Of a stretch of 6,406 bases of DNA, positions 1 through 6,088 are shown piece after piece. Origin of the DNA: Bifidobacteriaceae bacterium (GTDB taxonomy: Bacteria; Actinomycetota; Actinomycetes; Actinomycetales; WQXJ01); NCBI GenBank assembly GCA_031265345.1, contig JAISCU010000061.1, forward strand, positions 1 through 6,406, written 5' to 3'. The translations under genes and the position numbers were made by a program. The notes below the pieces were generated by a model. It saw only the letters and a program-made list of their open reading frames with translations. It did not search any database and had not been told where the DNA came from. How positions within the stretch are numbered: position 1 is the stretch's first letter; each line of letters starts with the position of its first letter.

Positions 1-749
1 CTTTCGGCCAACGGCTCGGTCGGGGGTGGGGAATCCTCGTCGGCCTTCTCCTTGGCGGCATGGCGTTCCACCAGACCCTCGGCGACGGCATCGGCCATGA
101 CCCTGGTCAGCAACCCGACCGCGCGGATGGCGTCGTCGTTGCCGGGAACCGCGTAATCGACCTCGTCCGGGTCCGCGTTGGTGTCGAGGATCGCGATGAT
201 CGGAATACCGAGCTTGCGGGCCTCGTCGATGGCCAGGTGCTCCTTCTTGGTGTCCACGATCCAGACCGCCGAGGGCACCTTGTGCATGGTGCGGATGCCG
301 CCGAGCGTGCGCTCGAGCTTGTCCCGCTCGCGGCTCATCATGAGCCGCTCCTTCTTGGTGTAAGCGCTGCCGACCGAGTCCTCGAGGTTCATGTCCTCAA
401 GCTCCTTCAGGCGCGACAGGCGCTTGGAGATGGTCTGGAAGTTGGTCAGCATGCCGCCCAGCCAACGCTGGTTCACATACGGCATGCCCACCCGCGTGGC
501 CTGGTCCTGGACCGCTTCTTGGGCTTGCTTCTTGGTGCCGATGAACAGGAGCGACCCGCCGCGGGCCACCGTGTGCTTGATGAACTGGTAGGCGGTGTCG
601 ATGTGCCCGAGCGTCTGGCCCAGGTCGATGATGTAGATGCCGTTGCGCTCGGTCAGGATGAAGCGTTTCATCTTCGGGTTCCAGCGCCTGGTCTGGTGCC
701 CGAAGTGGACACCGCTGTCGAGCAACTGGCGCATGGTGACAATGGCCAT
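1..749 (-). CDS. rpsB: 30S ribosomal protein S2 (partial, 3' end outside window)
   Basis: Ribosomal protein S2 of the small subunit, needed for binding of S1-like factors and for 30S function. Reading down from ATG 749-747, the frame stays open for 249 codons to the window edge, so the stop lies outside. The product starts [20 protein letters not shown] and continues [11 protein letters not shown], the N-terminal S2 signature. Further in are [30 protein letters not shown], and the second S2 signature around residues 165-205 ([20 protein letters not shown], then [20 protein letters not shown]). Past residue 230 it turns into an acidic, Pro- and Lys-rich tail, normal for actinobacterial S2. The start is supported by an AGAGG box 10 nt upstream. 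It is divergent from the M23 gene, which is the usual actinobacterial arrangement; tsf would be expected just beyond the left edge. Identification is near certain; the plus-strand frames over this stretch are shadows. Confidence 0.98.
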
Positions 750-759
750 GTGTGATTTT

Positions 760-765
760 CCTCTC
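760..765 (-). promoter_or_regulatory. rpsB ribosome binding site
   Basis: On the minus strand GAGAGG lies 10 nt before the rpsB ATG (749), a serviceable Shine-Dalgarno box. It fixes MAIVTMRQ as the start rather than the internal ATG at codon 6. Confidence 0.75.
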
Positions 766-779
766 GGTTGTTCGTTCTT

Positions 780-797
780 CCGGCCCTGATCGGCCGG
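780..797 (-). other. Perfect 6-bp hairpin in the rpsB leader
   Basis: CCGGCC (780-785) and GGCCGG (792-797) form a perfect GC-only stem around a 6-nt loop, about 30 nt upstream of the rpsB start and just outside the ribosome binding site. If transcribed with rpsB it would lie in the 5' untranslated leader. A role in S2 autoregulation is only a guess, since short GC stems are frequent at this base composition. Confidence 0.35.
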
Positions 798-859
798 TCG
801 AACGCCTGGTGCGCCCGCGGGTACAGAACCGGGCTGGTGCCCGGACCGAGTCCGCCCGC

Positions 860-880
860 GCCTGGCTCGTGGGTCCAGGC
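860..880 (-). other. Second hairpin in the presumed rpsB leader
   Basis: GCCTGG (860-865) and CCAGGC (875-880) form a perfect 6-bp stem with a 9-nt loop. With the hairpin at 780-797 it suggests the stretch between the rpsB start and about position 920 could be a structured leader. There is no T-tract, so it does not look like a classical intrinsic terminator. Confidence 0.3.
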
Positions 881-925
881 TTGGGAGCACGCGAATTAGG
901 CGGCCCTTGTGGGCTGCCGGATGGG

Positions 926-931
926 ATTCTA
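926..931 (-). promoter_or_regulatory. Possible -10 element for rpsB
   Basis: The minus strand reads TAGAAT here, close to the TANNNT -10 consensus of the main actinobacterial sigma factor, and it stands out in GC-rich surroundings. Transcription from it would give a leader of roughly 170 nt. No convincing -35 is visible 16-18 bp upstream (the bases there are GC-only), so this is tentative. Confidence 0.3.
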
Positions 932-1021
932 CCGCACTCGTCGGCCCGCCCGGCCCGCTCGGCTCATCCATGTCGTTGCCGGTTTCGTGGTCGGTGCCCG
1001 CCAGGCAAGGTGCGCCCGCGC

Positions 1022-1268
1022 CGAGTCCGGGGTTTCGCGCGGCTCTTGTCATCGAGTCCGCTGTTCTCCATCGTCCTGGGCATCGAGTCCGGGGTTTTGC
1101 GCGCAACCCTGCCCGCAAGCAAAGCGCTGACCAGGCAAGACGGAAAAGGGCCGGATGCGAAACAGCGGGCTCGACGACCCGAAGCGTGCGAAACCCCGGA
1201 CTCGATGAGCAAAGGCATAGGAAACAGCGGGCTCGACGAGTCCCACGGGCCGCGAACCGGCGGGCTCG
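1022..1268. repeat. Inverted array of seven 17-bp cores at 31-bp spacing
   Basis: Three cores in one orientation start at 1022, 1053 and 1084 (form CGAGTCCGGGGTTTCGC). Four in the opposite orientation start at 1157, 1188, 1219 and 1252 (form GCGAAACCCCGGACTCG). Intervals are 31 and 31 bp in the left arm, then 31, 31 and 33 bp in the right arm, with 14-16 bp between cores. Cores 1022-1038 and 1188-1204 are exact reverse complements over 17 bp; so are 1081-1097 and 1191-1207. Two subtypes alternate: AAACCCCGGACTCG (copies at 1022, 1084, 1188) and AACAGCGGRCTCG (1053, 1157, 1219, with 1252 closer to this type). Most cores are followed by ATG or ACG in the GACTCG direction. A degenerate further copy may lie at 1293-1310. 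It is not CRISPR: spacers are too short and orientation flips. Confidence 0.85.
1101..1156. other. Centre of the inverted repeat array
   Basis: These 56 bp separate the left-facing and right-facing arms and contain no copy of the core. The sequence includes CCAGGCAAG at 1131-1139, a 9-bp direct repeat of 1001-1009 just left of the array. It would form the loop if the arms paired. I see no gene in it. Confidence 0.5.
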
Positions 1269-1470
1269 ATGGGCCAGAGCGAGCGGACCGCCGGGAACTG
1301 CGGCGACGAGCCCCAGCAGCGACATGGATAGGCCCCTGGTCCCGCACAGGCGCCGGACCACGCCCCGACCGCCGTCGCGTCGGGACCCGCGTCCAGGGAT
1401 GGCCGATGCCGCCGGGACGGCTCGTCCACAGGCTTTTCGTTTCCGCGCCCACGGGCTGGGAGCCTCGGCT

Positions 1471-4546: not shown

Positions 4547-6088
4547 CTAGGCCCTCCTCTGTCTGAAAGTCATGGCCGTGTCGATGTCCGGCGAGTCAGG
4601 CGAATCGCGTCCGTCGAGATCGGCTATGGTCCACGCCACCCGAAGCACCCGGTCGACCCCACGCATCGACAGGGCGCCCAGTTCCAGGGCGCGAGGGAGG
4701 CCCGACCGGGCCAAACGCGCCGATCCGAGCTTCGTTCGCATCCATTTGCCCGGTGCTTCGGAATTCAGCGCCCACCCGATGGGGCGGTAGCGGGCGGCCT
4801 GCGCGCGGCGCGCTTCGGCCACGCGGGCGGCCACGGTGGCGCTCGACTCGCCCCCGGAGGCCGCCCCGGCGGGCAGGGCACCGACCGGTTCGACGTCCAC
4901 CCACAGGTCGATCCGGTCGAGCAACGGTCCCGACACCCGGTCCAGGTACCTGCGCCGCGCGCCCGACGTGCAGGTGCAGGCGTCGCCCCGGCCGTAGGAC
5001 AAGCCGCAAGGACAGGGGTTCGCGGCCATCACGAGGTGGAACCGAGCAGGGTACCGGGCGGTGCCGTTAGCACGATGGATGACGACTTCTCCGCGTTCCA
5101 ACGGCTGGCGCAGCGTCTGCAGAACCCTCGGCGAGAACTCCGGGCATTCGTCCAAGAACAGGACTCCTCGGTGAGCTAGCGACACGGCACCGGGACGGGG
5201 CGACCCGCTGCCGCCACCGACCATAGCTGCGGGCGTGGCAGTGTGGTGCGGGTCCTGGAAAGGTGGGCGCCGGATCAGACCGGCCCGCGGGTCGAGGGCG
5301 CCCGCTATCGAATGCAGCGCCGTGACCTCGACGGCGGCGTCCTCGTCCAAGGACGGCAAGATGCCCGGCAACCGCGACGCCAGCATGGTCTTGCCGTTGC
5401 CGGGCGGCCCTTGCAACAACAGGTGATGGCCGCCGGCGGCGGCCAATTCCAGCGCGTAACGGGCGCTCGCCTGACCGACCACGTCCGCGAGATCCGGGCC
5501 GACCGGGGAAACGGCATCGTCCATCGGTTGCGGGCCGGCCTGCGCCCGACGCCTGGCGGAAGGCTCAGGGATCTTGGCACCGAGCAACCAGGCGACCTCT
5601 TCCAGCGATTCGACCGCGAGCACCCGCGCGCCTTTCACCATCCGAGCCTCCATGACCGCGCCGGCTGGGACCACCACGCGGTCGTGGCCCGCCGCGACCG
5701 CCCCCGCGACAGCCGGAAGGACGCCCCGGACCGGCCGGACCCGCCCGTCCAGCGACAACACGCCCAAGAACCCGGTGCCCTCCGGGTCGGCTTGGTCGAC
5801 CAGACCGGCGGCGATCAGCAGCGCCACCGCGATCCCGACGTCGAAACCAGTGCCGGCCTTGGGGAGGTACGCGGGCGAGAGATTGGCGGTCACTCGGCAA
5901 TCCGGGAAGCCGAACCCGGACGAGGCGAAGGCGGCGCGGACCCGGTCGCGGGACTCCCCCACCGCCGCGTCCGGCAGCCCCACCAGCACGAATGTCGGCA
6001 GACCCGACTGGGTCAGCACCTCGACATCCACGATATGACCGTCCAGGCCGGTCAAGCTGACCGCCAGGGTGCGCCCGATCCGGCTCAC
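4547..6088 (-). CDS. yifB: YifB/ComM family AAA+ ATPase (Mg chelatase-like)
   Basis: The family member ComM is a hexameric helicase that promotes branch migration during integration of transforming DNA; other members are of unknown role. The 513-aa product begins VSRIGRTLAVSLTGLDGHIV and has an N-terminal Lon-like domain (about 20-170; GLPTFVLVGLPDAAVGESRD, NLSPAYLPKAGTGFDVGIA). The AAA+ domain (about 195-400) has Walker A GPPGNGKT (227-234), FQDPHHTAT (277-284), Walker B VLFLDE (309-314), a sensor Asn357 in AANPCPCG, and GPLLDRIDL (387-395) with the likely Arg finger. Cysteines 359, 361, 371 and 373 form a CPC...CTC cluster seen in the family. The C-terminal Mg-chelatase domain follows (about 415-505). 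I chose GTG 6088-6086, which overlaps the yraN stop as GTGA and follows AGGGGG by 7 nt. The frame is open further upstream, but that extra N-terminus is antisense-like low-complexity sequence overlapping yraN. Confidence 0.95.
   Translation of the reverse strand: MSRIGRTLAVSLTGLDGHIVDVEVLTQSGLPTFVLVGLPDAAVGESRDRVRAAFASSGFGFPDCRVTANLSPAYLPKAGTGFDVGIAVALLIAAGLVDQADPEGTGFLGVLSLDGRVRPVRGVLPAVAGAVAAGHDRVVVPAGAVMEARMVKGARVLAVESLEEVAWLLGAKIPEPSARRRAQAGPQPMDDAVSPVGPDLADVVGQASARYALELAAAGGHHLLLQGPPGNGKTMLASRLPGILPSLDEDAAVEVTALHSIAGALDPRAGLIRRPPFQDPHHTATPAAMVGGGSGSPRPGAVSLAHRGVLFLDECPEFSPRVLQTLRQPLERGEVVIHRANGTARYPARFHLVMAANPCPCGLSYGRGDACTCTSGARRRYLDRVSGPLLDRIDLWVDVEPVGALPAGAASGGESSATVAARVAEARRAQAARYRPIGWALNSEAPGKWMRTKLGSARLARSGLPRALELGALSMRGVDRVLRVAWTIADLDGRDSPDSPDIDTAMTFRQRRA
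4552..4560 (-). promoter_or_regulatory. Strong dprA ribosome binding site inside yifB
   Basis: The minus strand reads AGAGGAGGG, 5 nt before the dprA GTG start. It is formed by the last codons of yifB (encoding the RQRRA tail). It settles the GTG at 4546 as the dprA start and points to coupled translation of yifB and dprA. Confidence 0.85.

Follow-up and report, generated by a model that had tools for sequence, protein, structure and literature searches.

Plasmid centromeres of the ParR/ParB type consist of phased repeated sites set in two blocks around a fixed middle. Among dispersed repeats, the GI REPIN has 71 bp between two 16-mers, the length of the spacer being kept rather than its sequence (PMC3116915, in the part of the text available), and BIMEs combine repeats of alternating orientation with protein binding (PMC2817692, in the part available). 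The foldback transposon Galileo carries secondary transposase sites in its repeated arms (PMC3688188), and BrickBuilt of Porphyromonas gingivalis is a MITE with 23-nt tandem repeats without spacers (PMC4596501), both according to the accessible sections. Endosymbiotic Bifidobacteriaceae of termite gut flagellates are described, in the accessible part of the source, from MAGs without detected transposable elements (PMC11707648). As far as these sections go, none of the descriptions of REPIN, BIME, Galileo and BrickBuilt includes non-palindromic sites set in phased, mirrored rows about a common centre, and no earlier report of such elements was recognised in the open-access literature searched, which is not proof of absence.

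Rows of this kind are present in the window, by which the whole analysed stretch of 6,406 nucleotides is meant. Here rpsB (3-749, - strand) and a gene for an M23 peptidase (1482-2030, + strand) are divergent, and the array is intergenic between them; downstream of the M23 gene follow a xerC/D-type integrase gene, dprA, and comM-type and UPF0102 genes, assigned by Pfam family, the more specific gene names being putative. The sequence-only reading had described seven 17-bp cores in two directions. Indeed, the profile GCGAAACMSCGGRCTCG at up to three mismatches gives exactly seven matches in the window, starting at 1022, 1053 and 1084 on the - strand and at 1157, 1188, 1219 and 1252 on the + strand (0, 3, 1, 0, 0, 2 and 2 mismatches, respectively), where 0.57 are expected by chance; the largest shuffled count was 3 and none of 200 shuffles reached 7. 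The claimed steps of 31 and 31 bp on the left and of 31, 31 and 33 bp on the right were recovered, as was the exact reverse complementarity of the copies at 1022 and 1188. The features of the region are as follows.

937..942, + strand: CTCGTC, candidate direct repeat left of the segment, read from the sequence; weak and not confirmed by empty sites
943..1420, no strand: segment absent from relatives, best-guess limits from flank alignments to L504 and L505
961..982, + strand: left half of an outer inverted pair (possible extra site or end), 18 of 22 positions complementary to 1313-1334
1022..1038, - strand: left-arm site 1, profile match, with CGGNCTCGA on the - strand at 1021-1029
1053..1069, - strand: left-arm site 2, three mismatches to the profile, shared motif at 1052-1060
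1084..1100, - strand: left-arm site 3 (innermost), profile match, shared motif at 1083-1091
1127..1149, + strand: centre, CTGACCAGGCAAGACGGAAAAGG, midway between the inner sites, similar to the centre of L158 in sister genome G002
1157..1173, + strand: right-arm site 1 (innermost), profile match, shared motif at 1166-1174
1188..1204, + strand: right-arm site 2, profile match, exact reverse complement of 1022-1038
1219..1235, + strand: right-arm site 3, profile match
1252..1268, + strand: right-arm site 4, profile match, after the 33-bp step
1313..1334, - strand: right half of the outer inverted pair, pairing with 961-982
1421..1426, + strand: CTCGTC, candidate direct repeat right of the segment, read from the sequence; weak

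The array thus comprises a row of reversed sites, a middle of 74 bp between shared motifs and a row of forward sites, with an inner start-to-start distance of 83 bp (1083 to 1166, measured on the shared motif CGGNCTCGA). Along the array, copies of two subtypes, ..CCCCGGACTCG and ..AGCGGGCTCG, follow each other in alternation. The part of the core common to relatives is CGGNCTCGAYG, and the left half of the 17-mer is specific to the lineage of the window. Since the imperfect inverted arms extend over 51-56 nt at 75-80% complementarity, the resemblance between them reaches partly into the spacers. The outer inverted pair, equalled by 1 of 300 randomised flanks, is not concentric with the array, its midpoint lying at 1147.5 as against 1128.5.

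Three MAGs titled Bifidobacteriaceae (G001, G002 and G003), presumably of termite gut origin, were used as sister genomes and carry the copy counts given below, the window's own genome being outside all counts. The nearest matches of the window RpsB were L001 in G001 (94%), L002 in G002 (96% over 233 residues) and L003 in G003 (89%). Compared with relatives, the window holds an extra segment of ~470 bp, with alignment limits at about 941-1409; the interval initially noted, 1022-1268, makes up about half of it. Window 706-940 aligns with 720-954 of L504 (G011) at 85.5%, and window 1410-1450 with 969-1011 of the same locus, 14 bases beyond the end of the left flank there. L505 (G010) agrees with L504, with window 706-937 aligned and a short 19-bp right match at 1425-1443, and in G007 (L506), which has no array, only the left flank aligns. 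The divergent rpsB and M23 genes are kept in G010, G011 and G007. A detector of phased inverted repeats flagged no array in 11 loci (L504-L514, some of them short), the only flags raised alongside these being the window and L003, where the array flagged belongs to a further family, A42, and lies beyond M23. No array was found in the 523 bp upstream of rpsB in G001; the G002 contig starts 176 bp upstream of rpsB and is uninformative on this point. Among 77 further rpsB loci (L004-L080), the detector flagged two, L017 and L070, both judged to be coding or short-step repeats. L070 755-825, from Streptomyces halstedii, is a short alternating inverted repeat with 16-17-bp steps.

These alignments bear directly on the regulatory role that had been proposed from the divergent intergenic position of the array. 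The conserved block just upstream of rpsB is left whole, including a -10-like TAGAAT (926-931, - strand) that is identical in L504 and nearly so in L001 and looks, from its sequence, like the -10 box of rpsB; the segment starts ~10 bp upstream of this hexamer, so that it would replace the -35 region. Although both position and junction would suit a site that regulates rpsB or the M23 gene locally, the array is not conserved there: G010 and G011 have both flanks without the segment, G007 and the 523 bp upstream of G001 rpsB have no array, and the same kind of array lies beside unrelated genes in the sisters. The comparison across species suggested in the sequence-only reading therefore speaks against conservation upstream of rpsB, and a local regulatory site is extremely unlikely. 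On this reading, a repeat array found between divergent promoters is not necessarily a regulatory one. Regulation through the rpsB leader, for which the site should be kept upstream of rpsB in relatives, was rejected on the same empty sites.

Copies were then sought in the sister genomes. The 17-mer was rejected as a genome-wide probe, since at up to two mismatches it gives 6, 11 and 6 matches in the three sisters vs 14, 10 and 3 for the reversed pattern, near control level; only the phased pair is specific. This pair, CGGNCTCGA-N21..23-CGGNCTCGA, is found 35 times in G002, 23 times in G003 and not at all in G001, with a reversed control of 0 in all three, which bears out the earlier suggestion of a repeat element, here in the sisters. 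Among 396 relatives of G002, at least one match occurs in 208, and only G002 and G003 stand out; the others have 1-6 each except G149, with 9, and the matches listed outside G002 and G003 look like coding chance. The 31-bp phased family (A31) was mapped as 13 arrays in G002, nine of them two-armed, and six two-armed arrays in G003. In every two-armed array the polarity is the same, the left arm being made of - copies and the right arm of + copies. All mapped arrays lie outside genes as called by a home-made predictor, in tandem, divergent and convergent gaps and beside unrelated genes; sister regions were mostly picked for array or centre matches, and the densities found there do not stand for whole genomes. 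By extension from the sisters, dispersal would also be expected in the host.

The geometry of A31 is regular. Inner distance is 83 bp in 9/9 two-armed G002 arrays, equal to that of the window, and in G003 it is 94 bp in 4/6 and 125 bp (94+31) in 2/6, the latter two having one unit below the motif cut-off; at 10.4 bp per turn, 83 and 94 bp make 8 and 9 turns. Of the spacings of 20-45 bp between motifs on one strand, 82 of 102 in G002, 36 of 41 in G003 and 4 of 7 in the window are exactly 31 bp, as counted over whole loci with a one-mismatch motif and including chance motif matches outside arrays. Helical phasing, as first proposed for the window, thus extends to both sisters. The sequence-only reading had also held that copies scattered without phasing or inversion would point to a simple dispersed repeat; the copies are indeed scattered, yet phased and inverted.

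Within units, identity is 89-91% at positions 1-11, a value inflated by the picking of units on the core motif, and 46-56% at positions 12-20, in the spacer; the left extension, at 58-74% identity, has a consensus that differs between lineages. What the lineages have in common is therefore the geometry and an 11-bp core, the rest of the site being specific to each. Unit number differs between arrays of one genome, with arms of up to 13 units (L208), and some neighbouring units are identical or nearly so. The outer flanks of the G002 copies are mosaic and partly shared, five of them aligning on one side and eight on the opposite side, so that any limits given for the A31 element are approximate. 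Two G003 contig starts, L220 1-430 and L224 1-310, carry near-identical stretches of A31 and of another family, F5, and then diverge, which points to duplication of the region or to a break of the assembly at repeats.

The inverted repeats around the centre differ between elements, and besides A31 they comprise families F2 to F6 and two palindromic kinds in G001. The operators are as follows.

F2 operator: CCTCGCGAGAGTACGGTTATGTAG
F3 operator: GCGAAAGGTCAATTCC
F4 operator: palindrome with CACGGATTTACGG
F5 operator: GCGACCTTCGCACAC
F6 operator: has CCAATTG

F2 half-sites number 98 in G003 and 0 in eight other genomes searched. Nearly all of them (96/98) form 48 +/- pairs, at 81 bp (16), 82 bp (28) or 83 bp (4). 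In 14 of 15 loops compared, with L459 left out, identity rises from 42-43% at the ends to 60% immediately left of the centre and 93% in the centre itself; length is hence held as sequence drifts. The flanks of F2 are unlike in sequence, yet rich in pyrimidines on the left side and in purines on the right; the copies read have no tandem units, and several elements lie soon after a gene end. These observations weigh on the view that a 31-bp unit simply grew as a minisatellite, by slippage and inverted duplication, the phasing being the unit length and nothing binding to it. Variation of unit number within one genome and the identical or nearly identical neighbouring units agree with such growth. 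However, spacers are half diverged in units that keep core and 31-bp step (with the core identity inflated as stated), the non-repeat centre keeps its length in 9/9 G002 arrays, and F2 holds 81-83 bp in 48/48 pairs with no tandem units in the copies read, which makes minisatellite growth clearly unlikely.

In L223, at about 5250-5450, a mixed element combines, about a single centre, left-hand A31 units with a right-hand F3 arm, a composition suggestive of exchange at that centre. In L466, L222 and L473, a nested inner inverted repeat of the CATCCCGG / CCGGGATG type lies inside F3, around the same centre. A42, the further phased family of G003, consists of GGTAGAGASTTGTTGCA or GGAGAGASTTCCGGT, mostly every 41-43 bp; its first form, GGTAGAGASTTGTTGCA, has 65 matches in G003 with a control of 0, its inner distance is 38 bp in 20/22 centres and 37 bp in 2/22, and the copies read are without the TGACC centre. 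From an A42 array to the next, the distance from - to + is mostly 45 bp. A42 arrays lie ~90-1290 bp from 31-bp arrays in six G003 loci (L141, L145, L152, L156, L157 and L221), in four of them within about 500 bp. The ~88 kb of G011 examined contain a single 31-bp array, built of another operator around CTGACCAGCGCAAACG; a search for this operator as an exact phased pair gave matches in 0/9 genomes including G011, the pattern being too strict to match even the known array of G011. The region upstream of glyA houses elements of A42 and other families in G003 and an A31 array in G002, as if it were a preferred place; the detector flagged none there in G011. The two stretches concerned, L150 5512-7166 and L216 1-870, hold different element families in G003 and G002.

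The middle of the elements is asymmetric, and nine G002 copies read ..TGACCTGCGACAACGC.. or a close form, in either orientation. The window middle, compared ungapped with a single G002 copy, the centre of L158, is identical at 32 of 74 positions, with the best score at offset 0 and CTGACC in place, and 16 of 20000 shuffles were as good; the opposite orientation gave 23/74 vs a shuffle mean of 19.3. Other operators are arranged, inverted, around a related centre, TGACCTGCGNNAACGC, in G003 and G001. At up to two mismatches, TGACCTGCGACAACGC is found 38 times in G001, 24 in G002 and 59 in G003, against 1, 0 and 3 for reversed controls; as the reversed control is without codon structure, part of this excess may be coding. 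In the chosen loci, matches to a looser centre pattern have an inverted repeat score of at least 12 in 32/111 cases in G003, 12/21 in G002 and 6/44 in G001, as against 26/540, 26/348 and 16/396 of random places; many centre matches, above all in G001, are thus not elements. The window centre departs in two letters from this looser pattern and is uncounted there, and the one window place that matches it is without a strong inverted repeat. A stricter centre, TGACCTGCGNNAACGCC, says little, since it matches in 44/149 genomes, and it misses the common G002 form. Of the 32 centre elements of G003, 17 are in tandem gaps, six in convergent and two in divergent ones, five at contig edges and two inside called genes.

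Recurrence of a centre with changing arms would fit a so far undescribed modular class of elements in these Bifidobacteriaceae, in which a common asymmetric centre, TGACCTGCGNNAACGC, is flanked by fast-changing mirror-image operator arms exchangeable at the centre, a core enzyme acting at the centre and family-specific DNA-binding partners choosing the arms. Such arms would be single sites or helically phased rows, unlike REP/RAYT systems and classical transposon ends. This wider reading is put forward tentatively, with odds well short of even.

Whether the constraint acts on DNA or on RNA can be judged from the arms. A stem kept as RNA should show more G-U than A-C mismatches. Over three genomes, the arms have 108 GU and 117 AC mismatches, and those of the window 5/5 and 3/3; without wobble preference, the constraint looks DNA-level, in keeping with the initial view of a row of sites on the DNA. 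A transcribed hairpin (an RNA element, terminator or small RNA) would agree with the fold of the window array as RNA, at z -6.05 on the + strand and -3.83 on the - strand relative to shuffles, and with the position of several F2 elements soon after a gene end. Any inverted array would fold well. Rfam gave, in six sister loci, a ZTP riboswitch (L150 5525-5633) and four microRNA hairpins below gathering scores; these four weak matches, in G003 loci, would also suit a hairpin, and three of them fall over two A42 stretches. Against it stand the balanced mismatches, the mixed gene orientations and the window itself, with no T-run terminator in 740-1500 and no Rfam match in 700-1700. A transcribed hairpin is accordingly very unlikely.

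Set beside the described systems, the elements of G002 and G003 share with REPINs and BIMEs the extragenic inverted doublets at a set distance in many copies. F2, with 81-83 bp in 48/48 pairs, closely parallels REPINs, and the arrays recall BIMEs in their alternating orientation (PMC2817692, available part). They differ from both in that the A31 core, in the units read from the window, G002 and G003, is non-palindromic and without a GTAG tag, in that the A31 arms are tandem phased rows and a similar centre is common to different families, and in that no cognate RAYT (Y1_Tnp) is found in G002 or G003. Palindromes do occur in F4, F6 and the two G001 families, and the letters GTAG in A42 and F2. 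Inverted arms of tandem direct repeats around a middle, the plan of foldback-type transposons such as Galileo and Tetris, are found here as well; as far as its available description goes, Galileo is eukaryotic, with arms of >1 kb and a known transposase, whereas the arms described here reach tens to hundreds of bp, with no coding copy found. BrickBuilt resembles the arrays in being intergenic and non-coding and in combining short tandem repeats, whose number varies, with conserved parts beside them (PMC4596501, accessible part). The present arrays differ from it in their inverted arms, in units made up of a core plus a diverged spacer, and in having the fixed part centrally, between the arms. 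The elements have the marks of a MITE (short, non-coding, many copies, unrelated flanks, empty sites), the empty site being that of the window A31 copy, the copy count that of F2 and A31 in the sisters, and the G002 A31 flanks being partly shared. Plasmid centromeres differ in that the arrays are many dispersed chromosomal copies in the sisters, and no partition gene and no cas gene was found among six window proteins tested. A CRISPR array was rejected, the repeats being inverted about a centre with a 31-bp unit and no cas among the six window proteins. The array is probably a variant of the dispersed-repeat kind, probably mobile, with an unexplained common centre.

On this basis, the array is best explained, with a probability of about 0.5, as one inserted copy, between rpsB and the M23 gene, of a dispersed, non-coding, lineage-specific mobile element that resembles REPINs or foldback transposons and is probably non-autonomous. 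This explanation builds on dispersal in two sister genomes, helical phasing, mirror-image arms, a middle of fixed length and the empty site in two relatives with both flanks aligned. In this model, a DNA-binding protein supplied in trans would line up on one face of the DNA at arm sites whole helical turns apart; with the arms opposed about an asymmetric centre whose length is fixed, the two rows of protein could meet there, or a second factor may act there. A transposase-like protein would recognise the inverted site pairs and copy or move the unit, and additional tandem sites may let it bind the element more firmly. Judging from REPINs and foldback transposons, this build is most likely explained by mobilisation, with transposition as the presumed cause of the spread.

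The arrays might instead organise the chromosome as binding sites of a nucleoid, gyrase, partition or SMC-loading protein. Several families are spaced by nearly whole turns (31, 42 and 81-83 bp), and the sites are intergenic whatever the arrangement of the genes and numerous within a genome, all of which would suit such a function; BIMEs bind IHF and gyrase (PMC2817692, part available). However, a housekeeping site should be kept, and F2 occurs in 1/9 genomes, A31 stands out in 2/396 and relatives are without the segment at rpsB. Mobilisation is favoured because the sites turn over between close relatives, as F2 does, and because F2 flanks are unlike; a chromosome-organising site is considered unlikely.

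Several results count against a mobile element or bear on its nature. No transposase was found among 10 flanking proteins tested. Y1_Tnp (PF01797, the RAYT family) gave 0 matches in G002 and G003, which are MAGs, so that this absence is not final, one in G001, which is without A31, and two in G011; IstB (IS21) gave four matches in G002 and G003 together, three over the cut-off and one of them strong (G003, E 5.6e-73). There is no clear target-site duplication, none being seen at F2 ends and the 6-bp CTCGTC repeat of the window being weak. Neither window 930-1420 against phages nor L216 150-520 against plasmids gave a match, and in the viral scan, among the matches listed, every row but one had a single match. 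Besides the lack of a neighbouring transposase, of Y1_Tnp and of a clear target-site duplication, points against a mobile element are arms of up to 13 units (L208), which exceed what a simple one needs, the A42 copies read without the centre, the 2/32 G003 centre elements inside called genes, the strong fold of the + strand of the window array (z -6.05), which leaves some room for an RNA role, and the 31 loci of other relatives, in which no match to the strict centre pattern (which excludes the G011 form) has a strong inverted repeat.

If the mobile-element reading is true, these genomes would hold dispersed bacterial intergenic repeats whose geometry (31-bp steps, an 83-bp gap, an 81-83-bp doublet) outlasts their sequence. 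The replacement of sites between close relatives would then help to study the recognition and spread of such repeats, and the window, G002, G003 and perhaps G011 would offer natural variants for finding the protein.
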